A stretch of DNA of 25,048 bases. It comes from a virus. The notes beneath the pieces were generated by a model, which worked only from the letters and a program-made list of their open reading frames with translations, was not told the DNA's origin and ran no database searches. Position numbers and translations under genes: made by a program. Where the stretch lies: positions 1 through 25,048 of the IMG/VR virus record IMGVR_UViG_3300031654_000126, one strand, 5' to 3'. Of the stretch, positions 11,509 through 24,480 are shown one piece after another. The number at the start of each line of letters is the position of its first letter. Within the stretch, counting starts at the first letter, position 1.

Positions 11509-11520
11509 ATGGAGCGAGCG

Positions 11521-12210
11521 ATGGCTGGCTGGCAAGTAGCCATTACTACGGCCCCTCGGCCGACCGACTACCTGCCAGCCACGATCAAGAGCCTGGCCGA
11601 GGCCGGCTGGCCGGATGTACAGGTCTTCGCCGAGCCCGGGACCCCGGTGCCGCCGGGAGTGCCCAGCATCGTCGCCCAGCGTCGCCTGGGGCCGTGGCTG
11701 GCCTTCTGGACGGCTCTCAGTAGCCTCCTGGCTACAGGCCGCCATGGGGCGTCTCTCGCGGTCTTTCAAGACGACGTGCTGGTCGCCCGAAACCTCCGAT
11801 GGTGGCTGGAGGCCGAGCCGTGGCCCCCAGAGGCGGGGGTCGTGTCGCTGTACCTCTCCGAGACCCAGGCCGAGGGCCGGCCGGCCGGATGGTCCGCCCT
11901 CGACCCGGACCGGGTGCCCTACGGGGCGTGCGGCGTGGTGATGAGGTCGGATGTGGCCCGCCGGCTGGTCGACGAGCCGCCGCACAGGGGCAACGGCCGC
12001 ATGACCGATACCTGGCTGGGGGCCTTCTGCGAGCGGGCGGGGCTGCGGTTCTGGCAGCACAGGCCGAGCCTGGTCCGGCACGTCGGCCGGGAGTCCTCGC
12101 TGGCCCGGCCCGGCAAGCGTCCGATCATCCGCCCGTGGATTCCCGCCCGGCACGAGGGGAAATTCGTTGAGGACGCCTCGCTCTTAGCCCACGGGCGAAT
12201 CACGGTATAA
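11521..12210 (+). CDS. GT-A-like glycosyltransferase
   Basis: 229 residues from the ATG at 11521, which has GGAG at 11511-11514 six bases upstream; an ATG at 11509 would add four residues. The N-terminus WQVAITTAPRPTDYLPATI is the usual first strand of a nucleotide-sugar transferase. VFQDDV at about 81-86 is the metal-binding DxD-type motif. YGACGVVMRSDVARRLV at about 143-160 and a later TDTWLGAFCERAGLRFWQH, then LVRHVGRESS, match the second half of GT-A enzymes (acceptor site, 'P-x-L-V-x-H-x-G-x-x-S'). It would transfer a sugar from a nucleotide donor to a glycan or protein. Specificity unknown. Its stop overlaps the next ATG (TAATG). Confidence 0.68.
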   Translation: MAGWQVAITTAPRPTDYLPATIKSLAEAGWPDVQVFAEPGTPVPPGVPSIVAQRRLGPWLAFWTALSSLLATGRHGASLAVFQDDVLVARNLRWWLEAEPWPPEAGVVSLYLSETQAEGRPAGWSALDPDRVPYGACGVVMRSDVARRLVDEPPHRGNGRMTDTWLGAFCERAGLRFWQHRPSLVRHVGRESSLARPGKRPIIRPWIPARHEGKFVEDASLLAHGRITV

Positions 12211-12893
12211 TGGTAGGCATAAACCTCAAAGCCTCCGCCGTGGTATTGAGTTACCGCCGGCCCCGGAACGTCGAGCGGATCGTGGCCGGCCTATTGAAGC
12301 ACCGCTTCGTCGACGACGTGGTGGTTTGGCATAACGGAGAGTATGAGAGCCCGACGATACCGATGGGCGGCAGGTGCATGATGTTCGCCTCCGGCGTGAA
12401 CAAGTACGTCTACGGGAGGTTTCTTGCCCTGCGGTTCTGCCGGCACGATACAGTACTGACGGTGGACGACGACTACCTGGTTCGCAACTGGCCCGAGATG
12501 CTGGCCGAGCACCTAAATCACCCCGAGGTCGTCACGGCGGGGCTGACGCCGGGCCACTACAACGCGGACCGGAGCAACCGATGGGGGAGCTGCCACGAGG
12601 TCCTGTTGGGCTTCGGCTCGGTATTCAACCGGCGGATGGTTGATCCGGCCCTGCAACGCTACATCGACGTTCACGGGCACGACAAGGTGCTGCTGCGGAA
12701 GGCGGACCGGCTGTTCACCATGCTGCTGAACCGCCGCCACAACGTGGTGCCGGCCGACGTGGAGGAGCTGCCGCTGGCCCGCGACGACGACGTGGCCCTG
12801 TACTGCCGGAAGGATCACGGCCCGCTGACGACCGAGGCCAGGCGGCGGGCGTGGAAAATATTAAGGATAGATAGAAATGACAACTCAGAATAG
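12210..12893 (+). CDS. GT64-like (exostosin-type) glycosyltransferase
   Basis: 227 residues, ATG on the last base of the preceding TAA. Domain features in order: AVVLSYRRPRNVERIV (first strand and helix), VVVWHNG at about 37-43, SGVNKYVYGRF at 61-71, the DxD motif VDDDY at 85-89, GLTPGHY, LLGFGSVFNRRMV and KADRLFTMLLNRR. This order (open donor fold, DDD, and a G-x-G/A-x-x-F-x-x segment before a conserved acidic helix) is that of the GT64 domain of exostosins and of related bacterial GT-A enzymes. The C-terminal acid/basic tail is unusual. It overlaps the next start by 17 bases. Confidence 0.65.
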   Translation: MVGINLKASAVVLSYRRPRNVERIVAGLLKHRFVDDVVVWHNGEYESPTIPMGGRCMMFASGVNKYVYGRFLALRFCRHDTVLTVDDDYLVRNWPEMLAEHLNHPEVVTAGLTPGHYNADRSNRWGSCHEVLLGFGSVFNRRMVDPALQRYIDVHGHDKVLLRKADRLFTMLLNRRHNVVPADVEELPLARDDDVALYCRKDHGPLTTEARRRAWKILRIDRNDNSE

Positions 12894-13491
12894 TTGTGAT
12901 TTACCCCCTCTGCCAGTTCGGACAGGGATCAATTATCGTCTGATTGCCGAGGCCATTGGCTATGTGGTCGGAGGCGACTCCATTTTTCCGGGGAGGAGAA
13001 TGACCATGGCAACTGCAAGTCTTCGTAGCGGACGTGGTGCGCCGAGTCCACTGGCAGTGGACCTCGCGCTGGCCACGGTGGACCTAGCTGCGCTACGCGC
13101 ACGGCGAGGCGTGGAGAACCTCGACGAGGAAGCTCAGGAGGCCGCGCTCCTCCTGCGGGACTACTATTCCCGCCAGCTTCACGCGGCTTCAACGTCGGGT
13201 CAAATCTCGGAGGAGGCGGTCCGGGATGAGAGCGTTCGAAGAGCGATCCAACAAAGCCTGACGTTGCTAACTCAGACCAAGCCAAAGCTAGACGACCTGG
13301 ATGAGGACGACCGCCAACTTCTGGAGGAGCTTGTTTCGCTGTTTTCAACGCTTGCTGAACGGGGTTGCTGCAAAGGCGATCAAGCCGAGAGATTGCATTC
13401 GGCTCTTGGCCGACTGGACGTGAAACTCGCTGCGCCTTCAGCAGCCGCTGAACGCACCAAGCTTTCGGAGCTGTTGAATGCTTTCTCCTGA
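12877..13491 (+). CDS. Hypothetical helical protein
   Basis: 204 residues from the ATG at 12877, with AAGGA at 12863-12867 nine bases before it. A second in-frame ATG at 13006 has a much stronger site, GGAGG at 12992-12996, and would give 161 residues; either or both could be used. The part after 13006 is almost wholly helical (LALATVDLAALRARRG, DEEAQEAALLLRDYY, DDRQLLEELVSLFSTLAERG) and acidic. No motif is recognised, and there is no membrane segment. Codon use is less G+C-biased than in flanking genes. It separates two glycosyltransferase genes, so it may be a later insertion. Confidence 0.5.
   Translation: MTTQNSCDLPPLPVRTGINYRLIAEAIGYVVGGDSIFPGRRMTMATASLRSGRGAPSPLAVDLALATVDLAALRARRGVENLDEEAQEAALLLRDYYSRQLHAASTSGQISEEAVRDESVRRAIQQSLTLLTQTKPKLDDLDEDDRQLLEELVSLFSTLAERGCCKGDQAERLHSALGRLDVKLAAPSAAAERTKLSELLNAFS
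12992..12996 (+). promoter_or_regulatory. Strong internal ribosome binding site
   Basis: GGAGG within GGGGAGGAG, nine bases before the in-frame ATG at 13006. It is among the best sites in the window and suggests that the shorter 161-residue form is the main product, or that two forms are made. Confidence 0.6.
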
Positions 13492-13612
13492 GCTGCAAGT
13501 CCCCGTGCGCGTGGCTGCCGAGCTTTTCTACCGCAGTTCATGCCTGAACTCAAGTTACGTTTCTGCTGTCGCTGCGGGGCGCAAATGGAAACACTTGCGG
13601 GACATCGAATGA
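13478..13612 (+). CDS. Small hypothetical protein (44 residues)
   Basis: A short frame from the ATG at 13478 to TGA 13610-13612. It overlaps the end of the preceding gene by 14 bases, has GGAG at 13467-13470 exactly seven bases before its ATG, and its stop overlaps the glycosyltransferase ATG as ATGA. The protein begins MLSPELQVPVRVAAELFYRS and ends KWKHLRDIE. No family is recognised. The coupling on both sides and the good site make it more likely than not to be translated, and it fills what would otherwise be a 117-base gap. Confidence 0.5.
   Translation: MLSPELQVPVRVAAELFYRSSCLNSSYVSAVAAGRKWKHLRDIE
13535..13550 (+). other. Short perfect inverted repeat
   Basis: AGTTCA at 13535-13540 and TGAACT at 13545-13550 around a TGCC loop. 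It is inside the small gene at 13478-13612. The stem is short and no T-run follows, so a role is uncertain. Confidence 0.25.
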
Positions 13613-14523
13613 AAATTTTAGCGCTATATGACAGGCCAGGGTATGCTTATTGGCGGCGAGTATGTGCTTTGCGGAAACATGCGCCGCCAGGCTACGAAGT
13701 CGAGATCGCCACCGATTTTTCTGGTCAACCGTGTGACGTAATTTTTCTCTGCGATTACGCGAGGGCTATTGGCATACGGCAACGAATCAAACAACACGGG
13801 GCATCGTCTTCTTTGGTGGTCAGTTTCAATGCCGGCCCGATGCGGCGGCGGGGGATGTGGCAGCGGGTCTACGACGCGGCCGACTTCGTGATCTGCAACA
13901 GCCAGGCGACGTACGACTCGTGGCCGGAGTACCCGAAGAGGTGCTGCATAAGCAACGGCGTGGACCTGGAGACGTTCACCGTGACCACGCCTCTGGTCGA
14001 GCGGGGCGAGAAGTGCCTGTGGTATGGCCGGGCCGGCAAGGTGTGGAAGGGGCTGCGGGAGGTGCTGAAGCCGTTGACGAGGCTGCTGGGCGAGCACGGC
14101 TTCACGTACGACTTCCGCGAGCTGCGGCCCGGGGCCCCGCCGATGACGACGCCCGAGCTGGCCGAGTGGTACAACCGTGGCTCGTACGTCCTGTGCGCGA
14201 GCGAGCTGGGCTACGAGGGGACGCCGAACCTGGTCACCGAGGCCGTGGCCTGCGGCTGCGTGGCCGTGACCACCCGGACCGGCAACGTGCTGGAGTGGGG
14301 CCGCGATGGCGAGAACTGCCTGCTGGCCGAGCACAACCCGGTGTCGTTCCTAGACAAGCTGTTCGAGGCGAGGAAGCGGCGGGTCGAGATCGCCCAGGCG
14401 GGGATCGACGCCCTGTCGGGTTGGGACTGGAGCGAGCGGGCAAGGGAATTCTACCGGCTGTTCGAGCGGATCGCGAAGCAGGGGGCCGGGGCTATCGGGC
14501 CGTTCAGCTACATAGACGAGTAA
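13609..14523 (+). CDS. GT-B glycosyltransferase (GT4-like)
   Basis: 304 residues from the ATG at 13609, chosen because it begins directly with the first Rossmann strand (MKILALYDRPG) and overlaps the upstream small gene as ATGA; the longer in-frame start at 13540 adds a Cys-rich leader with no ribosome binding site. N-terminal domain: SLVVSFNAG and ADFVICNSQATYDSW with CCISNGVDLETF at the domain junction. C-terminal domain: CLWYGRAGKVWKG, then the donor-site motif of retaining transferases, E203 to E211 (E-x7-E) in GYEGTPNLVTEAVACGC. It lacks some N-terminal length compared with the usual 360-400 residues. It likely transfers a hexose or similar sugar from a nucleotide donor. Confidence 0.82.
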   Translation: MKILALYDRPGYAYWRRVCALRKHAPPGYEVEIATDFSGQPCDVIFLCDYARAIGIRQRIKQHGASSSLVVSFNAGPMRRRGMWQRVYDAADFVICNSQATYDSWPEYPKRCCISNGVDLETFTVTTPLVERGEKCLWYGRAGKVWKGLREVLKPLTRLLGEHGFTYDFRELRPGAPPMTTPELAEWYNRGSYVLCASELGYEGTPNLVTEAVACGCVAVTTRTGNVLEWGRDGENCLLAEHNPVSFLDKLFEARKRRVEIAQAGIDALSGWDWSERAREFYRLFERIAKQGAGAIGPFSYIDE

Positions 14524-14546
14524 CCTATAACACAAGGAGCAACGCC

Positions 14547-15251
14547 ATGGCGAAACGAAAGCAGGAATCGCCCGCCCACCAGTTCGTGATGCTGGCGTGG
14601 CGAAACAAGTGCAGCGCGTGCCCGCACTCGTGGGCGCGCGTGAATCAGACCATGCGGCGAACATTGCACCTCGCCATCGAGTTGGGCCTGGAATTCGCCC
14701 AGGGTGATTTCGGCGCCATTTACGACGCCTGCCGCGGCGGCTATTGGTTCACGGATGATGGCGGAGAGTATTTCTACACGACGGCAGTAGTGGCCGAGAA
14801 CCTCTCGGCCTGCAAGGCTTTCGAGTCTTTCAGAGGTCGCGGGCCGATATTGGCGGATGACGTTAGGGCGCAGGGCTACGAGCGGATTCGTCGCCAGCGA
14901 GAGCGCCTGGCGGTAGGTCTCAGTTTCGAGTATGCGGGGTACAGACCGGTAGTCACGTCTTTTTCCAACGGGGCCGTGGTTGCCTGCACGTACCGCACTC
15001 GGCCCGAGGGCAAGTACTTCAACAAGGTCGAGCGGCGATTCTGTATTACCCGGGAGGATATCGTCCTAGATCGGGCCGACCGGCGGTGGCGAGAGAAAGT
15101 GCTGCGAGGAAGTCGTGATTGGCCGGTCACCAAACGCGAAGCACTCGGGGCGTTGCTGGGACTCGATAAGGTGTCAAATTGGAGAGAAGCATTCCAGCGA
15201 ATGAAACGCTCGAAGATCGAGCGGACCTTAAAGTCGATGGGGTGCGAATAG
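14547..15251 (+). CDS. Hypothetical protein
   Basis: 234 residues. The ATG at 14547 has AAGGAG at 14534-14539 seven bases upstream, so this start is secure although the frame is open much further upstream across the glycosyltransferase. The sequence is basic and mixed alpha/beta: LAWRNKCSACPHSWARVNQ has a C-x2-C pair, the middle includes GGYWFTDDGGEYFYTTAVVAEN, and the C-terminus is charged and helical with KREALGALLGLDKVSNWREAF. No family recognised. A good ribosome binding site of its own and moderate codon bias suggest a cargo gene rather than a structural one. Confidence 0.6.
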   Translation: MAKRKQESPAHQFVMLAWRNKCSACPHSWARVNQTMRRTLHLAIELGLEFAQGDFGAIYDACRGGYWFTDDGGEYFYTTAVVAENLSACKAFESFRGRGPILADDVRAQGYERIRRQRERLAVGLSFEYAGYRPVVTSFSNGAVVACTYRTRPEGKYFNKVERRFCITREDIVLDRADRRWREKVLRGSRDWPVTKREALGALLGLDKVSNWREAFQRMKRSKIERTLKSMGCE

Positions 15252-15255
15252 AAAG

Positions 15256-15450
15256 ATGGCTGAAGCCAAGATCATGGATTGGCACAACTGCTATGACGGC
15301 TCGTGGAAAGGTGGTCTGTTCGTCGATCAGGCGAACGAGAACTTCGCCCTCCACTACAGCACTTGGCAGACGTTCGGCGATCCGCAGCCAGAGATCGTCC
15401 AGGGCGACTCGCGGCGGATGACGGAGTGTGTGTGGATGAACTATGCCTGA
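15256..15450 (+). CDS. Small hypothetical protein, possible remnant of a DNA methylase
   Basis: 64 residues, starting four bases after the previous stop. The segment MDWHNCYDGSWKGGLFVDQA resembles, from memory, the first residues of a phage DNA methylase family that starts with W-H-x-L-Y-x-x-S-W-x-G. The sequence then diverges and ends eight bases inside the next gene, which is itself a DNA methyltransferase. It may be a truncated N-terminus left by recombination, or an independent small protein. Weak ribosome binding site. Confidence 0.4.
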   Translation: MAEAKIMDWHNCYDGSWKGGLFVDQANENFALHYSTWQTFGDPQPEIVQGDSRRMTECVWMNYA

Positions 15451-17113
15451 CTGTACTGTTCATTGCGGCGACGTAATCGAGGAGCTGAGCCGTATGGCTG
15501 ATTGCAGCCTTGACGCTGTGTTGACCGATCCGCCTTACGGGTTGGAATTTATGGGAAAGGAATGGGATAGGTTGCTTGTTCGTGATCGAAATGCTGGCTT
15601 CCCGTCTTGTCGCCATTCACATGGGCCGAATGAATATCGGGGTGGAATTGTAGGTCAGCAATGGCACCAGGAATGGGCCGAGGCCGTCTACCGCGTCTTG
15701 AAACCCGGTGGCTTTCTGCTGGCCTTCGGCGCCACACGGACCTATCACCGTCTGGCCTGTGCGATAGAGGATGCGGGGTTTGAGATTAGGGATTCGATAC
15801 TGGTTCCCGGCGTGGCTTGGCTGTACGGCTCGGGCTTCCCGAAATCTACGGACATCTCGAAACAACTTGATGCGAAGGCGTGCCGCAGGGAATTGCAGGA
15901 GAAGTTGGGCAGGCCGCCGACGAAGGCGGAGTTCAAGGCGGCGTGGGGGACGTGGAGGGAGGTGGTGGGCCGGTATCAATATCCCCCGGACCATCCACGC
16001 CCACCTATCAATCAAGGTGGCAATAGCAGTTCGCTGCCGATGGGGCAAGGACGTAAGGGAGCGGATGACACACGGAAAATCACCGCCCCCGCCGCCCCCG
16101 AGGCCCAGCGCTGGGACGGATACGGAACATCTCTGAAGCCCGCCTGGGAGCCCGTCTGTGTCGCCATGAAGCCGCTTGACGGGACGTTTGCCGAAAATGC
16201 CTTGAAGTGGGGCGTGGCGGGGCTGAATGTGGATGGGGGGCGGATAGGTGAGCATTCATGGAAAAAACAGCAGGGAGAAGCAGGGGGGGGGTTCAAGAGT
16301 GGCAAGTTTATGGGTGCGATGGGGCTAGGGAAGCCTACTGGCGTTAATGAATTGACATCTGGTTCGGGTGGCCGCTGGCCTGCCAATCTGGTTTTGGTTC
16401 ACTCGCCCGATTGTGTCAGGAGGGGGAAGAAGAAGGTGAAGGGTAGCAACTTTGAGGGCGCCGAAACGGGCCGAGTGAACGAGGTGTTTGGTAAAGATCA
16501 TCGACCTCGCCCCGCCGCTGGCCACGCCGACGCCGGCGGCCTGGAGGAGATCGAGGACTGGGACTGCGTGCCCGAGTGCCCCGTGCGGCAGTTGGCGGAG
16601 CAGAGCGGGGAAAGGCCGGGGGAGCACAAACAGCAACGCAATACGCGAGTTGAAAGTCGTTTTTTTGGCTCCCATAAGGACGGTGACGTAACTGAAGCGT
16701 ATGCGGACACCGGCACGGCCGCCCGCTTTTTCTACCAGGCCAAGGCCCACCGGAAGGAACGCAGCGCAGGGCTGGACGGCAAGCAGAACACTCATCCGAC
16801 GGTCAAGCCTCTGGAGCTGTGCAAGTACCTTGCCACGCTGCTCTTGCCGCCCGAACGCGAGATGCCTCGCCGTATCCTTGTGCCTTTCGCCGGCAGTGGG
16901 TCCGAGATGATCGGTGCCCTCTTGGCCGGCTGGGACGAGGTTGTAGGAATTGAGCGGGAGCGGGACTACGTGGCGATAGCCAACGCCCGGCTGAAATGGT
17001 GGCTGGAGAGGGTGCGGAAGTACGGCGCGCCCCTGGAGCCGAAAGCTGTCTTGAAGGAACGAAAGCCCGCCCCGGCCCCCAAGGTGCAGGCGGGCCAGAT
17101 GGAAATGTGGTGA
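15443..17113 (+). CDS. DNA methyltransferase, beta class (N6-adenine or N4-cytosine)
   Basis: 556 residues. The catalytic motif IV TDPPYG is at 28-33. Motif X-like HPTVKPLELCKYL lies at about 451-463, and the SAM-binding motif I FAGSG is at 482-486 followed by GIERERDY. The order IV then I with the recognition region between defines the beta class. The enzyme moves a methyl group from SAM to an amino group of adenine or cytosine in a short recognition sequence; no endonuclease partner is visible, so it is an orphan, likely to protect phage DNA from host restriction. It is longer than the usual 250-400 residues because of a large Gly/Pro-rich middle (about 150-400), where base composition varies. 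The last bases overlap the next ATG (TGATG). Confidence 0.88.
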   Translation: MPDCTVHCGDVIEELSRMADCSLDAVLTDPPYGLEFMGKEWDRLLVRDRNAGFPSCRHSHGPNEYRGGIVGQQWHQEWAEAVYRVLKPGGFLLAFGATRTYHRLACAIEDAGFEIRDSILVPGVAWLYGSGFPKSTDISKQLDAKACRRELQEKLGRPPTKAEFKAAWGTWREVVGRYQYPPDHPRPPINQGGNSSSLPMGQGRKGADDTRKITAPAAPEAQRWDGYGTSLKPAWEPVCVAMKPLDGTFAENALKWGVAGLNVDGGRIGEHSWKKQQGEAGGGFKSGKFMGAMGLGKPTGVNELTSGSGGRWPANLVLVHSPDCVRRGKKKVKGSNFEGAETGRVNEVFGKDHRPRPAAGHADAGGLEEIEDWDCVPECPVRQLAEQSGERPGEHKQQRNTRVESRFFGSHKDGDVTEAYADTGTAARFFYQAKAHRKERSAGLDGKQNTHPTVKPLELCKYLATLLLPPEREMPRRILVPFAGSGSEMIGALLAGWDEVVGIERERDYVAIANARLKWWLERVRKYGAPLEPKAVLKERKPAPAPKVQAGQMEMW

Positions 17114-17283
17114 TGGAAGTCCGCGAGGGCCCGCCGCTGATCTACGTGCCGATCTGCAAGCACCCGCGGGACTTCATGTTCACGTTCGGCCCGGTGGGCT
17201 ACAAGCGGGTTGACACAGTGGCGGAATCGCCGATACTGGTGAGGGCGACGGAACCGGAGCCACCGGATAGAGAGCATGACTGA
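17113..17283 (+). CDS. Small hypothetical protein (56 residues)
   Basis: Starts at the ATG overlapping the methyltransferase stop and ends eight bases inside the next gene. The sequence has MEVREGPPLIYVPICKHPRD, then FTFGPVGYKRVDTVAES, and an acidic end. No family is recognised. Overlap coupling at both ends supports translation; the open frame upstream of 17113 runs over the methyltransferase and is a shadow. Confidence 0.45.
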   Translation: MEVREGPPLIYVPICKHPRDFMFTFGPVGYKRVDTVAESPILVRATEPEPPDREHD

Positions 17284-18001
17284 CCGACGGAATGACCTGC
17301 CGCTTAGGCCGGTACCCCGAGAGGACTGGCAGCAGGACTTCGACCGCCTGATGCGCGACCCGTACCTGCAACGCAAATACTCCCGCGATGCGAGGGTCCT
17401 GGAGCACTTGGAGTATATCCAGACCTACGTGCCGGAGATTACCGGGGGGGGCTCCGGGCTGGTCGTCGACGCGGGCCCTGGGCCGGGCGAGTTCCTGGAG
17501 TGGTGCCGGAAGTTCGGCCGGAAGACGCTCGGCGTCGAGGCCCTCTGCGGCGAGGGCGGGATGGGGGATGGCTACCTGGGGCTGTCCCGGTTGATGCACG
17601 AGCGACAGGGGATCGACGTGCGGTACTGCGGCTGGCAGCAGTTCGTCAGGTATTTGGCGTCAGATCCATGCGACTTGGAGGTGGACCTCCTCAATTTCCG
17701 CGGCTCGTGGGCCCAGTGCTACGCGGACTTCGTGGATGGCCCGCCCCACCACCTGCACCACGACGTTCACCAGCAGCGGTGGCGGTTCGACTACCACGTG
17801 TCGTCCGCCTGGCAGGCGGCGTTCGAGGCGATGGAACGCCGGTTGATTCCGGGCGGCCACGTCCTGATCGTGGCGAACCGGCTGGGCGAGCAGTCGGGGC
17901 AGGACCGATACTGCCGCGAGATACGGCGCGTGGCCGAGGGAGCCGGGCTGGTGCTAGTCCGCCACGAACAGAATTGGGTCCATGAATGGGAGCGGGCGTG
18001 A
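17276..18001 (+). CDS. SAM-dependent methyltransferase
   Basis: 241 residues. The class I SAM-binding motif is LVVDAGPGPGEFLEW at about 62-76, followed by GVEALCGEG (motif II, acidic residue for the ribose). DLLNFRGSWAQCYADFVDG and then IPGGHVLIVANRLGEQ give the later strands of the fold. His-rich HHLHHDVHQQ in the middle is unusual. It probably methylates a sugar or other small acceptor used by the neighbouring transferases; the substrate cannot be read. Its ATG overlaps the upstream stop, and a 34-base gap follows. Confidence 0.62.
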   Translation: MTDRRNDLPLRPVPREDWQQDFDRLMRDPYLQRKYSRDARVLEHLEYIQTYVPEITGGGSGLVVDAGPGPGEFLEWCRKFGRKTLGVEALCGEGGMGDGYLGLSRLMHERQGIDVRYCGWQQFVRYLASDPCDLEVDLLNFRGSWAQCYADFVDGPPHHLHHDVHQQRWRFDYHVSSAWQAAFEAMERRLIPGGHVLIVANRLGEQSGQDRYCREIRRVAEGAGLVLVRHEQNWVHEWERA

Positions 18002-18035
18002 TCAACCGAATCTTGTACAATCTCGTGAGGCGGCG

Positions 18036-18647
18036 ATGATACTGTGGAGCTGGATACCGAAAACGGCGGGTACGTCGATCCACAACCGTTTGTCCGGTAG
18101 CGGCCGGCCATGCGAACGAGATGCTCTGATTGGCTGCACTGAGTATCCATCGAGGGTCGCTGTGTTTAGCCATGGGCACTGGCCCTTTCGGGATCTGCTC
18201 AAGAAGAAGTGGCGTACACGAAAAGAGCTTGACGCCTCGCTAAGCTTCGTATTTGTTCGCAACCCTTGGGACCGCTTCGTATCGATATATTACAAATACC
18301 ATCTTAGGCACAACGGATTTGGTGATTTCGTCGCGTCGTTTCTGTTGGACCCTCAGCGGACGACACCCATGCGAAAATACCCGGGTCATTACTTCGGCCG
18401 ACCGCAGATGGACTGGACACACTACGCAGATGGGCAACAAGCGGTCAGGTTAATCCTGCGGTACGAACATCTGGACAACGATTGGGAGCGCGTGTGTGAA
18501 ATGACGGGCATGAACTACGCTCCGCTCAGTCGCGTGAATGTCACCAAAATGAAGCGACCATACCGGGACTATTACGAGACGGATACACGAGAAAAGATTC
18601 GCAGGTTCTACCAGTCGGACATCGACGCCTTTCAGTATGAATTCTAG
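18036..18647 (+). CDS. Sulfotransferase-like protein 1
   Basis: 203 residues from the ATG at 18036, which has GAGG at 18027-18030 five bases upstream; a longer in-frame start at 17982 would overlap the previous gene and add 18 residues without motif content. PKTAGTS at 8-14 is the 5'-phosphosulfate (PAPS) loop and FVFVRNPWDRFVS at about 70-82 is the 3'-phosphate motif, followed by a C-terminal helical domain. This is the pattern of Sulfotransfer_2-type carbohydrate sulfotransferases, which move a sulfate group from PAPS to sugar hydroxyls. The DNA is visibly more A+T-rich than both neighbours, suggesting recent acquisition. It ends with TAG. Confidence 0.78.
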   Translation: MILWSWIPKTAGTSIHNRLSGSGRPCERDALIGCTEYPSRVAVFSHGHWPFRDLLKKKWRTRKELDASLSFVFVRNPWDRFVSIYYKYHLRHNGFGDFVASFLLDPQRTTPMRKYPGHYFGRPQMDWTHYADGQQAVRLILRYEHLDNDWERVCEMTGMNYAPLSRVNVTKMKRPYRDYYETDTREKIRRFYQSDIDAFQYEF

Positions 18648-18665
18648 CAATACGCCGGAGCAGGC

Positions 18666-19262
18666 ATGACGTACCAGTGGAGAAACGTGATCCCCGGCTC
18701 GAAGCGGCAGGGGCTGTTCGTCCACGTGCCGCGGACCGGCGGCCGCTCTTTGTTGCGGGTATTCAACTGCCCGTCGTCGCACTATCCGGCGGCCGAGCAC
18801 CGGCGACGGATACCGAAGGACGTGTGGGACTCGCTCTGGAAGTTCGCCGTCGTGCGTAACCCCTGGGACCACTACGTCTCGATGTGGCTCTGCTCGCACG
18901 GGCGGGGGAACCCTGCGGATGTTCGCGACGAGATACCCGCATTCCGTCGATGGATCACCGACGGCGGGATCGGCCTGAAGGTCTGGGGCGGCATCGCGCG
19001 GGTCAACGCGCTCGATCAGCTCGCGTTCGTCGCCGACAAGGAGGGCGAGATCCTGCTAGACCGCGTCTACATCTTCCCGCAGCTACAGGACGCCGCCGAC
19101 GACGCCCATAAGATATTGGGGACACGCAAGGCCGAGGTGCCTTACGTGGGCAAATCGCCCCGGCTGCACTACCGGGAATACTACGATGACGAGTGCAGGC
19201 AGGCGGTAGCCGCATGGCGGAAGGCCGAGATCAAGCGGTTCGGATTCAAGTTCACTAAATAA
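18666..19262 (+). CDS. Sulfotransferase-like protein 2
   Basis: 198 residues, GGAG about eight bases before the ATG. LFVHVPRTGGRSL at about 17-29 is a PAPS loop variant (P-R-T-G-G instead of P-K-T-G-T), and KFAVVRNPWDHYVSMWL at about 59-75 is the 3'-phosphate motif. A C-terminal helical part ends in KRFGFKFTK, a compact ending seen in such enzymes. The Arg for Lys in the first motif is common in related phage and host proteins. It is a clearly different sequence from the previous sulfotransferase, so the two are not a recent tandem duplication. Confidence 0.72.
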   Translation: MTYQWRNVIPGSKRQGLFVHVPRTGGRSLLRVFNCPSSHYPAAEHRRRIPKDVWDSLWKFAVVRNPWDHYVSMWLCSHGRGNPADVRDEIPAFRRWITDGGIGLKVWGGIARVNALDQLAFVADKEGEILLDRVYIFPQLQDAADDAHKILGTRKAEVPYVGKSPRLHYREYYDDECRQAVAAWRKAEIKRFGFKFTK

Positions 19263-19277
19263 ACAACGGAGCAAAGT

Positions 19278-19541
19278 ATGACAGCTATCGCGGCAGTCAA
19301 GAGCGGGAATCGCATATTCATGGGGTGCGATTCGGCGGGTGTCGGCGGTTGGCATCTGCAACTCCGAGCAGACCCCAAGGTGTTCCACGTCGGCCACTTC
19401 CTGATCGGCTATACCGACTCGTTCCGAATGGGGCAACTGCTGCGGTTCGGCGAGCAGCCGCGGTTCACGTTCGTGGACGACCGGACGGGCAAGAAGGTGC
19501 AGATCGTCAGCAGCGCCATCGTCGTGGAGCGGATCGAGTGA
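19278..19541 (+). CDS. HslV/proteasome-like Ntn-hydrolase, half-length
   Basis: 87 residues. After removal of the initial Met the protein starts with Thr. Relative to that Thr as residue 1, Asp is at 17 (GCDSAG) and Lys at 33 (RADPKVF), exactly the catalytic positions of proteasome beta and HslV peptidases. HFLIGYTDSFRMGQLL then corresponds to the G-x-x-G/S strand after it. HslV is about 175 residues; here the second half is missing and the C-terminus (RFTFVDDRTGKKVQIVSSAIVVERIE) looks foreign. The stop is TGA followed by C, and the frame continues in an open stretch to 19676. Function as a protease is therefore doubtful; the truncation may be a recombination product. Confidence 0.62.
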   Translation: MTAIAAVKSGNRIFMGCDSAGVGGWHLQLRADPKVFHVGHFLIGYTDSFRMGQLLRFGEQPRFTFVDDRTGKKVQIVSSAIVVERIE

Positions 19542-19676
19542 CGGGGACAGTGGGCCGAGCCAACCGGTATCTTTACAGACGCTCCTGCTGCGGCCGAAAC
19601 AGAACCGCTGAGCAAACCACCGCCCGCCGAACCGATACCGCTGGGCGGCAAGCGGATGATTAGTTTCGAGGGATAG
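19542..19676 (+). other. Open in-frame stretch after the TGA of the Ntn-hydrolase gene
   Basis: 44 sense codons in the same frame as the gene ending at 19541, reading GQWAEPTGIFTDAPAAAETE, LSKPPPAEPIPLGG and KRMISFEG, then TAG 19674-19676. There is no internal start except near the end. The Pro/Ala/Glu composition looks protein-like. Possible explanations are UGA readthrough (UGA-C is a leaky context), a nonsense mutation, or loss of the start of a separate gene. This and the following bases form the largest gap between called genes, about 146 bases. Confidence 0.4.
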
Positions 19677-19687
19677 GAGGCAGTGAC

Positions 19688-20221
19688 GTGAAGATCCATC
19701 TCGGCTGCGGGGATATCCGGCTACCGGGCTTCGTCAACGTTGATGTCCGCCCGCTGACTGACAAGACGGCTGACGCCCGCGACCTGCCGTACGGCGATGA
19801 ATCGGTGGACCTCGTCTACGCCAGCCACCTGCTGGAGCATTTCTGGCCCCGCGAGGCAGGGGTCGCTGTGCGAGAGTGGCACCGTGTGCTCAGGCCAGGC
19901 GGCACCTTGAGGCTGGCCATCCCGGACTTCGCGGCGATCACGTCGCGATACGCGGCGACGAACGACCTGCCAGAACTGCGGGGGCTGCTCTATGGAAGCC
20001 GCGTGTACCCGGACTACCCCGAGGACGCTCACCATTCATGCTGGGACAGGGAGACGTTGACGGACTTGCTGGAGACGGCCGGCTTCGTGGAGGCTCAATC
20101 GTACGACTGGCGACAAACGGAGCACGCGGCTATAATCGACTGCGCGTCGGCCTACCTGCCCCGAGGGGACTTTGCGAGAGGTCAACACATGAGCCTTAAC
20201 ATGGAGGCCAGGAAGCCATGA
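19688..20221 (+). CDS. Class I SAM-dependent methyltransferase
   Basis: 177 residues from the GTG at 19688, with AGGAGG about eight bases upstream (19676-19681). MKIHLGCGDIRLPGFVNVDV has the glycine-rich SAM loop (L-G-C-G) and an acidic residue after the second strand. SVDLVYASHLLEHF and EWHRVLRPGGTLRLAIPDF are the Methyltransf_11-type motifs (A-x-x-L-L-E-H-F and the RPGG turn). Motif spacing is normal and the protein is short, without an N-terminal extension. The likely acceptor is a sugar hydroxyl or similar, from context. Overlaps the next ATG (ATGA). Confidence 0.82.
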   Translation: MKIHLGCGDIRLPGFVNVDVRPLTDKTADARDLPYGDESVDLVYASHLLEHFWPREAGVAVREWHRVLRPGGTLRLAIPDFAAITSRYAATNDLPELRGLLYGSRVYPDYPEDAHHSCWDRETLTDLLETAGFVEAQSYDWRQTEHAAIIDCASAYLPRGDFARGQHMSLNMEARKP

Positions 20222-21081
20222 GGGGGACACTAGACATGAAGGTTATCGGCGGCCTGGCGTGCCGCGTGCGATGCGTGATCGCAGCCGTCGCCTACACTCA
20301 GCGCACGGGAAAGCGGCTGGTGGTCGACTGGAAGAAGAAGGACAAGGCGCAGAAACTAGGGACGTTCGACGTGTCGCTGGAGGAGCTATGGGAGGGGCCC
20401 TACGAGGTGACGGACACTGGGAAAAGCTGGAACGGCACGTACAGGACGCCCCGCGACGAGCTGGCTGCGGCCCTGGACGGGGACGGCGATCTGCGGATAC
20501 GCACGGACAGCGCGCTGGCGTTCGGCCGTTGGAACGTGCCGAACCTCGGGTACTGGTTCCGGAGATACATGCTGCCGACGGAGATGCTGGCGAACAGAAT
20601 AGTAGCCTTGACCTCGAACCTGCCGTCCCCGCTGATCGGCGTCCACGTGCGGGACGCGAAGCCTGGCAGCCAGAGGGCCCCCGACCTCGACTGGTACCGC
20701 AGGACCATCGCCGAGCGGCCGGCGTGGCCGATCCGGCTCTGCACAGAGTCGCAGCGGGTGGCCGATTGGTTCGCGGCCTGGTACGGAGACCGCGTGTCGA
20801 TCTCCAAGCGCGAGGACGACCGCCCGGTCGGCACCTACAATCGGTCCGGCATCCTCCACGTAGCCGCCGAACTCTACCTGCTGGCGGATCATTGCGACTG
20901 GGTCATCGGCTCGAAGCGTTCGACCTACTCAGAACTGGTCGCGTTGATGCGGGGCGCGGTGAAGATAGGCTCGGCGAGGACGGCCTCGGCAGCGGCCCCG
21001 AACACGCGGGGCGGACTGTACGAGGACCAGGCCGTACCTCCGGACGATAGCGATCTTGGAGTGATTGGTGCCAAACGATGA
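20218..21081 (+). CDS. NodZ-like fucosyltransferase-type protein
   Basis: 287 residues, ATG overlapping the previous stop (ATGA); a second ATG at 20236 would start nearer the conserved part. VIGGLACRVRCVIAAVAYTQRTGKRLVVDW at about 9-38 fits the GDP-sugar transferase opening (G-G-L-G/A-N/C-R-x-R, then G-x-x-L-x-V-x-W). LIGVHVRDAK at about 139-148 is the donor-binding H-x-R motif of GT11/GT23/NodZ proteins, and a late DWVIGSKRSTYSELVAL is the third conserved block. NodZ adds fucose to chitooligosaccharide. Cys in place of Asn in the first block is unusual. It is shorter than NodZ (about 320 residues). Substrate unknown. Confidence 0.7.
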   Translation: MRGTLDMKVIGGLACRVRCVIAAVAYTQRTGKRLVVDWKKKDKAQKLGTFDVSLEELWEGPYEVTDTGKSWNGTYRTPRDELAAALDGDGDLRIRTDSALAFGRWNVPNLGYWFRRYMLPTEMLANRIVALTSNLPSPLIGVHVRDAKPGSQRAPDLDWYRRTIAERPAWPIRLCTESQRVADWFAAWYGDRVSISKREDDRPVGTYNRSGILHVAAELYLLADHCDWVIGSKRSTYSELVALMRGAVKIGSARTASAAAPNTRGGLYEDQAVPPDDSDLGVIGAKR

Positions 21082-21752
21082 ACGTGCTTGCGGTGGGCGC
21101 GCACTGGGATGATATCGAACTGGGCTGCTGCCTAACGATCGGGCGGTTGCGGGAGCGCGGGGCCACGGTGTACGGGGTGGTGCTGACGGACTCCGAGACC
21201 TTCGTTCCGCACGCGGGACACGCCAGGTACGCCGCCGAGGCCAATGTCCGGCACGCTAGGTCTGCGGAGGAGGCCAACCGGGAGGGTCTGGCTGCGTTCA
21301 AGGCGCTCGGCATCGAGCCGCTGCTAGTGAGAAAGGAGGCGACGAACGAGCTGCGATACAGCGCGAGCCTGATGCAGCAGATAGACCGGGCCGCCACAGA
21401 AAAGGCGGTGGACTGCGTCTTCACTCACTGGCCGGGCGACGTGAATACCGACCATAGGGCGACCTGGGAGTTATCGAGGGTCGCCTTCCGCAACGTCCGA
21501 ACCTTGCTCTGCTACCGAAGCAACGGGTACACCGACGGAGTGACGGAATTCCGACCCAACGTATTCTGTGGATTCTCCTCGGAACGATACGAGGAGAAGA
21601 CACGAACCCTGCAACTTCACGCGACGGAATGGCTTTACCGCAAGGGTCGCTGGCAGCGGGAGATCGTCGATCAGGAGCGGTACTGGGGCCACCTCATAGG
21701 CCGAGACTACGCGGAAGGCTTTGCCGTCTGCCGCCTCATGGACCCATGGTAG
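21078..21752 (+). CDS. PIG-L/LmbE-family deacetylase
   Basis: 224 residues, ATG overlapping the upstream stop. AVGAHWDDIELGC at 5-17 is the family signature A-H-P-D-D-E-x-x-G with Pro replaced by Trp; H9 and D12 are the usual zinc ligands. The third ligand and helper residues lie in FTHWPGDVNTDHRATWE at about 116-131, with H126. Middle residues (ANREGLAAFKALGIEPLLV) and length are normal. The family removes N-acetyl from GlcNAc-type sugars. In this array it would make a free amino group on a glycan or precursor for the transferases around it. No signal peptide; cytoplasmic. Confidence 0.85.
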   Translation: MNVLAVGAHWDDIELGCCLTIGRLRERGATVYGVVLTDSETFVPHAGHARYAAEANVRHARSAEEANREGLAAFKALGIEPLLVRKEATNELRYSASLMQQIDRAATEKAVDCVFTHWPGDVNTDHRATWELSRVAFRNVRTLLCYRSNGYTDGVTEFRPNVFCGFSSERYEEKTRTLQLHATEWLYRKGRWQREIVDQERYWGHLIGRDYAEGFAVCRLMDPW

Positions 21753-21762
21753 GGAACCGACA

Positions 21763-22461
21763 ATGAAACCTTGCCGAGAAATACCGGATGGGATGCGAGA
21801 CGCCTTCACCATGGGCGGACGAATTCCCGTGCAGTACCGCTACTACGATAACGTACCGCGCAAGCCCCTGGTGTTGACCCAAGAGAGAGTGGACGCCAAG
21901 ATCGAGCGAACGCGAAATGGAGGCGGCATAGGCTACAGCTACGCCACGATGGAGCTTCGCCGTGCTTTGGCCAGATGGCCCATTGCGGGGATGCGCGTCG
22001 CCGTGGTCGGCTGTGAGCGGCCGGACTATCCCGCCTTCTGCCTCGCCTTCGGTGCGAGGAACGTCACGGTGATCGACCGGAACCGAATCGTCTCGGAGTG
22101 CCGGCAGGTGGACGCTATCACTCGCGGCGAGTGGGAGGGCAAGCGATTCGACGCGGTCGTGTCGATGTCGATGCTGGACCACGACGGCCTCGGCCGCTAC
22201 GGCGACCCGGTCGACCCGAACGCAGACCTAAAGGCGATGCAATGGTTGATCGACATCCTCCGCCCCGGAGGCGTCCTACACATCACCGTGGCGGTGGGCG
22301 AGGACTGTCTGGTCTGGAACAGGGGCAGAATCTATGGTAGAATTCGATCGTCGGTTTTACTGGAGGGACGAAACGTGCTCTACGCCCCGTCGGCCTTCGA
22401 TCAGATGGACAAGGCGGACTGGATCTCGCCGGCCTATCCGCTGTTCAGCATAGGGAGCTAG
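21763..22461 (+). CDS. DUF268-family methyltransferase-like protein
   Basis: 232 residues from the ATG at 21763; the open frame upstream overlaps the deacetylase. MRVAVVGCERPDYPAFCLAFGARNVTVIDRN is the SAM-fold start, and HDGLGRYGDPVDP at 140-152 with an early DAVVSMSML is the near-invariant block of DUF268 proteins. ILRPGGVLHITVAVGEDCLVWNRGRIYGRIR supplies the rest of that family's pattern. Members occur in glycan gene clusters of bacteria and a few animals, with no assigned reaction. Its place between a deacetylase and a CmcI-like gene supports a role in glycan modification. Confidence 0.78.
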   Translation: MKPCREIPDGMRDAFTMGGRIPVQYRYYDNVPRKPLVLTQERVDAKIERTRNGGGIGYSYATMELRRALARWPIAGMRVAVVGCERPDYPAFCLAFGARNVTVIDRNRIVSECRQVDAITRGEWEGKRFDAVVSMSMLDHDGLGRYGDPVDPNADLKAMQWLIDILRPGGVLHITVAVGEDCLVWNRGRIYGRIRSSVLLEGRNVLYAPSAFDQMDKADWISPAYPLFSIGS

Positions 22462-22463
22462 CA

Positions 22464-23081
22464 ATGCAAGTGCCGCCGCTGCCGGAGGAGGCCCTGGCCT
22501 ACAGCGGGCTGTTCGACCGGGAGAACCTGGAGAACACGATGCGCTGGTGCGGCTACAAGGTGCAGAAGACGCCGGCGGACATGTGGGTCTACCAGGAGAT
22601 AATCACGGATACGCGGCCCGATCTCTTGCTGGAGATCGGTAGCGCCGCCGGCGGCTCGGGGCTGTTCTTCGCATCAGTGATGGAGGCCCTTGGGACCGGG
22701 CAGGTATTGTCGTTTGACACGCAGTCGAAATGGCAACGGCCAGTCCATCCACGACTGGAATTCACGAAGGGCGACCCGAGGGACCTGGTGGACGGCATCT
22801 CCAAGCTCGTCCGGGATGAGGGGTTTTCGTTGATGGTGGTGGAGGACGCGGCCCATACCCACGGCATGACCCTCGGCTGCGTGGAGGCATTCGCGCCGCT
22901 GGTGCCCCGCGGTCATTACTACGTCGTCGAGGACACGGACCTGCACAGGCAGGACTCTAGCGGCGTCTGGCGGGCGGTCCGCGAGTTCATCGAGGCGAAC
23001 CCCGGCTGGGAAATCGACTGGTCGCGGGAGAAGTTCCACCACACGACCTGCCACGGCGGGTTCCTGAGGCGCAAGCGATGA
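22464..23081 (+). CDS. CmcI / rhamnosyl O-methyltransferase-like protein
   Basis: 205 residues, GGGAG about ten bases upstream of the ATG. MRWCGYKVQKTPADMWVYQEII, then PDLLLEIGSAAGGSGLFFASV at about 51-71 (SAM loop with G-S-A-x-G-G-S), MVVEDAAHTHGMTLGCVEAF, YYVVEDTDL and a C-terminal GGFLRR. This is the order of the cephalosporin hydroxylase/CmcI family (PF04989), many members of which are sugar O-methyltransferases such as the rhamnosyl enzymes of mycobacteria. Metal ligands of the family are represented by the two Asp/Glu of EDAAH and VEDTD. Ends in an ATGA overlap. Confidence 0.85.
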   Translation: MQVPPLPEEALAYSGLFDRENLENTMRWCGYKVQKTPADMWVYQEIITDTRPDLLLEIGSAAGGSGLFFASVMEALGTGQVLSFDTQSKWQRPVHPRLEFTKGDPRDLVDGISKLVRDEGFSLMVVEDAAHTHGMTLGCVEAFAPLVPRGHYYVVEDTDLHRQDSSGVWRAVREFIEANPGWEIDWSREKFHHTTCHGGFLRRKR

Positions 23082-23752
23082 AGATACGACCAAGCATCGT
23101 GATGATCGGCGCGCCGAATAGCGGCACGAGCATCGCGGCGAAGCTGTACCAGGCGCTCGGCTGGAACTTCCAAGAGAGCCACGAGGTACAGGCCAAATTC
23201 ATGCACTTCGGTTGGCTCAGCCGCGCGTCCCAAGTATGCGCCAGGACCGACGACGCGGAGAAGGTGGCCGAGGCGAGGCGAGCGGTTCGCGATGGCTTCG
23301 AGGCGGCGGCCAAGCCCGCGATCGCCAAGCAGCACAACCTGTCCTGGTGCCTCGACAAGTTCACCGACATCTTCCTGGACGTGGAGCCGGACACGACGCT
23401 GGTCTTGAATGAGAAAAACATCGACCTGATTCGCCGATCCACGCACCTGCGGCGGAAGCACGATGACCACGACTTGGGATGGATGAAGCGGAGCATAGCG
23501 GACTGGGTGCGGGCGGCCGAGCGTCAATACGAGCTGTGGCCAGCGGGCAAGTACGTCATATACCAGGCCGAGATAGCCAAGGCCGTCTCGGACGGCAGCG
23601 CTAGCAGCTTCTTCCGCGCCCTTGGCGTGCAGGACTACGGCATCGGCGACGGGACCGTTCGTTCGGCGATGGAGCTGTTCGACCCCACGCGGGACCGCGA
23701 CGACAATCCGCACCGCGGCCTGGATGGCTGGGAGTATCCGCGATGTTTATGA
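23078..23752 (+). CDS. Sulfotransferase-like protein 3 (atypical)
   Basis: 224 residues, ATG overlapping the upstream stop. SIVMIGAPNSGTSIAAKLYQ at about 6-25 fits the PAPS/P-loop-like start (G-x-P-x-S-G-T-S). The 3'-phosphate motif is not clear; the corresponding strand reads TTLVLNEKNIDLIRRST, without the usual R-N-P. The rest is helical. It may be a divergent sulfotransferase or another nucleotide-binding enzyme of the same fold. The end overlaps the next gene by ten bases. Confidence 0.55.
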   Translation: MKIRPSIVMIGAPNSGTSIAAKLYQALGWNFQESHEVQAKFMHFGWLSRASQVCARTDDAEKVAEARRAVRDGFEAAAKPAIAKQHNLSWCLDKFTDIFLDVEPDTTLVLNEKNIDLIRRSTHLRRKHDDHDLGWMKRSIADWVRAAERQYELWPAGKYVIYQAEIAKAVSDGSASSFFRALGVQDYGIGDGTVRSAMELFDPTRDRDDNPHRGLDGWEYPRCL

Positions 23753-24480
23753 CCGACCGGCACATCCTGTTGTGCGTCAACAACTGCGGCAGCAGCCACG
23801 GCTGGGTGCTATTGAGGGATACGTGCGGAGGCCGGCTTGTGACGAAGGGCAAGTCGAGGCACGCACCGATCCGGGTTGCAAAACCCGAGTGGCTGAAGGG
23901 CCGCGCGGTAATCGGGATGCTGCGGAACCCGTTCGGCTGGTACGTCGGCGGCTGGTACAAGCAGCACTGCCTCCAGAGGCAGAGGGGCGTTCACGCCGTA
24001 GGCTTCGAGGAGTGGTTCTGGGATCTGAACAGGCAGCCGTGGCGGCACTTGACGGTGGCCTACTGGCCGCCCGAGCCGAGGCACATTCGCCCGGGAGCCT
24101 GCACGTTCTTTCACCTGCACTTCCACCTGCCGCAGGCGCTGAAAGTGTTCGATGAGTACCGGTCGATGGCAGAGGTGGAGAGGGACTACGACAGCCTATT
24201 ACGCGTGGACGACTGGGTGCGATGCCACACCTACTACGAGGACTTCGCGCGGATACTCGGCCGGCCGCTCGTGATAGACAAGAGCCTCTACCGCAACCAG
24301 CACGCGCACGGCCCTCACCAGGACTACTACACGCCAGAGATGCGAAGGTACGTCCAGGAGAACGACGCCTTTCTGCTGGAGAGATACGGCTATACATGGG
24401 ACGGCCCGGCCTACCGCTCGGCCGAGCACAAATACCCGCCGATGCCGTCGGCGATCGCCGTCGAGAAAGGGTCCGAATGA
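23743..24480 (+). CDS. Sulfotransferase-like protein 4
   Basis: 245 residues; the ATG at 23743 has GGAG at 23731-23734 eight bases before it, and a second ATG at 23749 overlaps the preceding stop. The N-terminal ILLCVNNCGSSHGWVLL at about 8-24 is a variant of the P-K-C/T-G-S/T loop. AVIGMLRNPFGWYVGGWY at about 55-72 is the 3'-phosphate motif (R-N-P). Near the end, YYTPEMRRYVQENDAFLLERYGY is the C-terminal helix and R-F/Y-G-Y ending of heparan-type and phage sulfotransferases. The protein has several added Trp/His-rich blocks in the middle. Fairly secure by ending plus R-N-P. Confidence 0.68.
   Translation: MFMTDRHILLCVNNCGSSHGWVLLRDTCGGRLVTKGKSRHAPIRVAKPEWLKGRAVIGMLRNPFGWYVGGWYKQHCLQRQRGVHAVGFEEWFWDLNRQPWRHLTVAYWPPEPRHIRPGACTFFHLHFHLPQALKVFDEYRSMAEVERDYDSLLRVDDWVRCHTYYEDFARILGRPLVIDKSLYRNQHAHGPHQDYYTPEMRRYVQENDAFLLERYGYTWDGPAYRSAEHKYPPMPSAIAVEKGSE

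Follow-up and report, generated by a model that had tools for sequence, protein, structure and literature searches.

Fragment of a phage proteasome/HslV-like gene, probably decayed, in an enzyme cassette behind phage tail genes

Gene content of the locus

The window analysed here, the whole 25,048-base stretch of an IMG/VR virus record, carries phage tail genes (major tail protein, tape measure, head-tail adaptor) followed by sulfotransferase, methyltransferase, deacetylase and glycosyltransferase-like genes. The long cassette of enzymes of host-surface type behind the tail genes extends over 11509-24480 and also includes several methyltransferases and glycosyltransferase-like genes. Within it, a DNA methylase gene (15443-17113) contains a long insert between the methylase halves, so that its Pfam and PHROG matches are split, and gives a weak, below-cut-off match to a homing-endonuclease-associated repeat. 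No HslU-like gene was noticed in the window, which is a fragment of a genome.

The ORF under study (19278-19541, + strand) encodes a protein of 87 residues starting with Met-Thr. The features of the locus are collected in Table 1, in which L090 designates a sister contig of 92,947 bases that has genes in common with the window, among them a sulfotransferase at 75% identity.

Table 1. Features around the 87-residue ORF and in the enzyme cassette
Feature	Position	Strand	Basis or remark
Methyltransferase-like gene	17276..18001	+	76% identity to L090 3743-4465; weak below-cut-off Pfam methyltransferase match
Sulfotransferases in the cassette	17982, 18666; by eye also 23078 and 23743		
Sulfotransferase-like gene, upstream of the stub	18666..19262	+	75% identity to L090 5001-5594
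Likely ribosome-binding site of the stub, GGAG	19268..19271	+	Sequence; DNA similarity to the intact L090 gene starts here
N-terminal 59 codons of a proteasome/HslV-like Ntn-hydrolase	19278..19454	+	PHROG 1040, L090 identity, family profile, dN/dS
C-terminal 28 codons and TGA, non-peptidase; at least the 3' part a neighbour-gene remnant	19455..19541	+	
3'-end remnant of an unrelated 138-aa gene, whose intact copy is at L090:7527-7943	19512..19670	+	Interrupted by TGA at 19539-19541
SAM methyltransferase downstream of the stub	19688..20221	+	Pfam Methyltransf_11, E 4.2e-12
PIG-L deacetylase	21078		
CmcI-type methyltransferase	22464		

Homology of the N-terminal part

When Thr2 is counted as residue 1, Asp and Lys of the 87-residue protein fall at positions 17 and 33. 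This spacing had been pointed out in the first-pass annotation and is borne out by the translation and by the relatives. The first 59 codons hold these three residues as well as the start of helix H1 (SFRMGQLL). Residues 1-56 match PHROG 1040, "peptidase HslV family" (E 5.7e-7), and 167 phage records match the ORF at E values up to 1, many of them T5-like Salmonella and Escherichia phages, the best being Moorella phage MTATph1 (residues 1-61, E 3e-12). A profile built from 73 of the 80 best viral relatives scores 92.7 bits against residues 1-62 and finds nothing beyond. Judged from these similarities, the N-terminus is homologous to proteasome-like proteins and not a chance resemblance. A Pfam search with the 87 residues gave no match, and an NCBIfam RNA chaperone match (E 0.007, far below the cut-off) and the phmmer matches to the PDB were taken as chance.

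Relatives are encoded in 386 IMG/VR stretches and, among the best 80 of these, all 80 are full length (174-219 aa); one short match, L006, ends because the end of its contig is reached. Thr2, Asp18, and Lys34 (ORF numbering) are kept in 67 of the 67 relatives compared, a set that was picked from the 73 because Asp18, Lys34, and Met51 line up in its members, so that the independent evidence for the invariance of the triad comes from alignments of 7, 21, and 30 sequences. Bacterial relatives were detected in 202 stretches, the best 80 of which belong mostly to Azospirillum, Rhizobium, Dactylosporangium, Streptomyces, and Frankia, with a few Paenibacillus and other taxa. The full-length phage relatives that the first-pass annotation had proposed to look for exist, and the lack of a conserved Thr/Asp/Lys set in relatives, which it had named as evidence against its reading, was not observed.

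The intact gene in the sister contig

The sister contig encodes an intact homolog of 179 aa (L090 4465-5004), which matches PHROG 1040 end to end and is 69% identical to residues 1-59 of the ORF; at the DNA level, window positions 19268-19453 correspond to L090 4455-4640 with 74.7% identity. The intact gene sits between homologs of the window genes 17276-18001, whose L090 counterpart directly precedes it, and 18666-19262, whose L090 counterpart lies downstream and matches the PHROG 3347 sulfotransferase. In the window, the stub of the peptidase gene follows 18666-19262 and is cut after codon 59. The extent retained is therefore about one third (59 of 179 residues): the earlier description of "half an HslV/proteasome subunit" was right as to homology and overestimated what is left, and it was also right that the second half of the fold is absent, since nothing in the ORF matches the latter half of the peptidase profile.

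Over the 57 stub codons shared by the two contigs dN is 0.19 and dS 1.0 (dN/dS about 0.19), similar to the neighboring genes, with dN/dS pairs of 0.15/0.60 and 0.19/0.87. At 16 positions the window and L090 carry different residues of which one is more frequent among the family members; in 12 of these the more frequent residue is that of the window. The 12 include Thr46 and Phe49, which are kept in 67 of 67 compared relatives and lost in L090. There (L090:4465-5004) they are replaced by Cys and Ile, respectively (ORF numbering), near the oxyanion-hole region, while Thr1, Asp17, and Lys33 are retained. The family-typical residues of the stub together with its dN/dS ratio indicate that a long period under constraint preceded the break, and the stub probably derives from a well-kept gene that was interrupted rather recently, relative to the split from L090.

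AlphaFold predicted the intact L090 protein with a pLDDT of 93.5 and a pTM of 0.89; the model shows four helices, 49-57 and 73-91 among them, together with the strands expected. In Foldseek the model retrieved BPH first (E 1.5e-10, TM 0.78), followed by HslV and proteasome beta subunits, and a profile search of PDB sequences concurs (BPH E 5e-6, HslV E 1.2e-5), so that a BPH/HslV fold can be predicted for this protein with confidence. For the 87-residue form, pLDDT was 53.4 and pTM 0.36, and the best PDB match reached only E 0.84; such a low-confidence model is no proof of disorder and is expected with two thirds of the fold missing. The ORF thus displays the Thr nucleophile after Met, Asp17, Lys33, and significant homology that characterize group I proteasome-like/HslV-type Ntn-hydrolases, and the complete core S1-S11 with its flanking helices is found in the intact L090 relative and not in the ORF.

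Origin of the 3' part

Window positions 19512-19670 match residues 81-137 of the 138-aa L090 gene with 43% identity (E 5.7e-5) and one internal TGA, which is the stop codon of the 87-residue ORF. At the protein level the alignment score is 76, compared with 28.7 +/- 4.8 (maximum 54) for shuffles, and the DNA is 84% identical over 38 nt. As the match starts within the tail of the ORF and crosses the TGA, the ORF consists of an N-terminal stub and a neighbor-gene remnant. The 138-aa gene lies about 2.5 kb beyond the intact peptidase gene in L090; its only family match is a weak, below-cut-off one to a fiber-tail adaptor model, and the remnant in the window is the only other trace of it that was found. 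Codons ~60-78 of the ORF show no detectable match to either parent gene. The codon usage of the last 28 codons is coding-like; a search with the tail found no homolog in phages, and the exact junction was found in no viral contig other than the window. The proposal that the last 25 residues are unrelated holds in that they are not peptidase, and it needs amending in that the tail is at least partly the remnant of a different gene, with homology running past the TGA.

Two simpler readings of the break were discarded. A frameshift error would leave the missing part in a downstream frame, and no such frame matches it when scored with the family profile; moreover, 233 bases separate the end of the stub (19454) from the next gene start (19688) and about 360 would be needed. 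With the missing two thirds absent in every frame, a frameshift cannot account for the short ORF. A short internal deletion that kept the second hairpin was considered because the tail FTFVDDRTGKKVQIVSSAIVVERIE resembled by eye GTFLVAYRGRIFEIESDYQVGERLE of the relatives; the profile test rejects it, with p about 0.2 against shuffles and 18% of real window 30-mers scoring as high.

Interpretation and alternatives

Altogether, the ORF is very probably a decayed member of a known phage family, a stub joined to a neighbor-gene remnant by rearrangement; that it is a dead fragment of a gene and not a new minimal enzyme is almost certain. In the proposed mechanism, a rearrangement (deletion or illegitimate recombination) in the gene-shuffling cassette behind the tail genes would have truncated a proteasome/HslV-like gene of full length (about 180 aa) downstream of codon 59. 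The 3' part of an unrelated ~138-codon gene would thereby have become attached to the stub, and the reading frame of the fusion ends at the TGA within the remnant. The 87-residue chimera so formed would keep Thr1, Asp17, and Lys33; lacking helix 2 and all of the sandwich's second half, it could not build the enzyme. We infer that a single event made the chimera and that its product is unfolded and without function. The "decayed peptidase" option of the first-pass annotation is accordingly well supported, considering that the gene is intact in a sister phage and that the tail derives from another gene. Counting against a dead fragment are the preserved ribosome-binding site and open frame with coding-like codon usage, as well as the fact that the junction is known from one contig; the chimera may still be translated.

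That single contig also leaves some room, if little, for an assembly chimera, in which the phage would have an intact peptidase and an intact gene of the 138-aa type that the assembler joined wrongly, an unlikely event given that the remnant has an in-frame TGA and 43% identity to the L090 gene, as expected of decayed sequence, and that gene order differs from L090 at other points too, so that real rearrangement is common in the region. The other option raised initially was that a minimal domain has taken on a new use, for instance to disturb the assembly of host HslV: the chimera would be kept to act on host HslV or proteasome-like rings, e.g., as a dominant-negative subunit. Its own ribosome-binding site, intact catalytic spacing and coding-like tail would agree with such a role, but no other short form occurs among the best 80 viral relatives, neither the whole tail nor the junction has a phage homolog, no viral contig holds a readthrough form, the tail is of remnant origin, and the structure prediction gave no confident fold, the outcome that had been named in advance as speaking against it. 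We regard a functional protein as very improbable, and the specific version in which a maintained chimera poisons the proteasome-like ring of the host or of a co-infecting phage by donating an incomplete subunit as more improbable still. Programmed readthrough of the TGA to a 132-residue protein has a negligible likelihood: the frame is open to 19673 after the TGA, but codon usage past this codon is not coding-like, the region is left over from a different gene, and no relative of the readthrough form appeared in the viral contigs searched. In addition, the contig uses TGA as an ordinary stop codon; being the commonest stop in the window (16 of 29 genes), TGA is not recoded.

Taken as a broken gene, the stub evidences that a phage proteasome homolog can be lost and is therefore dispensable, at least in this lineage, and it documents shuffling and decay of the cassette behind the tail genes. 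By itself it matters little, being a real but ordinary finding, a damaged member of a phage gene family already known, and the intact family, often found beside terminase or portal genes, is the more interesting object. Of ~69 phage loci, 21 (L013, L014, L022-L024, L027, L030, L033, L035, L041, L043, L044, L047, L051, L055, L058, L059, L072, L078, L085, L086) have the full-length proteasome-like gene at most 1 kb away from the gene for the large terminase or the portal, oriented the same way and often directly adjoining it; some of these loci are near-duplicates. This proximity hints at a role of the proteasome-like gene in head assembly, a role of which no description was found.

Comparison with known systems

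The first-pass annotation considered phage proteasome relatives to be little described, which is true of their function, on which no paper was found, and not of their existence, given the 167 matching phage records and the published survey. HslV-like genes without HslU were reported in a paper on Salmonella jumbo phages (PMC7823757), and two kinds of phage proteasome homologs, PPH (about 140 aa) and AAH, were described by Fuchs, Alva and Lupas 2021 (PMC8665760). The intact L090 protein shares with HslV (ClpQ) and BPH the fold (TM about 0.6-0.8) and the catalytic spacing at about 20% identity, whereas the window copy cannot build this fold. Similarly, the ORF matches PHROG 1040 (T5-like phages, Moorella phage MTATph1) significantly at its N-terminus and lacks the rest. 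PPH is likewise a short phage member of the superfamily; however, helix H2 is all that it lacks, and it keeps the core, which the ORF has lost, and the relatives of the ORF are longer (174-219 aa) and have both H1 and H2. AAH, the alpha-proteobacterial and actinobacterial proteasome homolog that is also present in many phages (PMC8665760), is a group I (BPH/HslV-like) homolog with Thr1/Asp17/Lys33, and the spread of our full-length relatives, mainly Alphaproteobacteria, Actinobacteria, some Firmicutes, and phages, matches the published one. By length, helices and host distribution the relatives would fit AAH, for which that paper names the reference accession WP_035979212, and not PPH, the window copy differing from AAH in that it retains the first 59 residues only.
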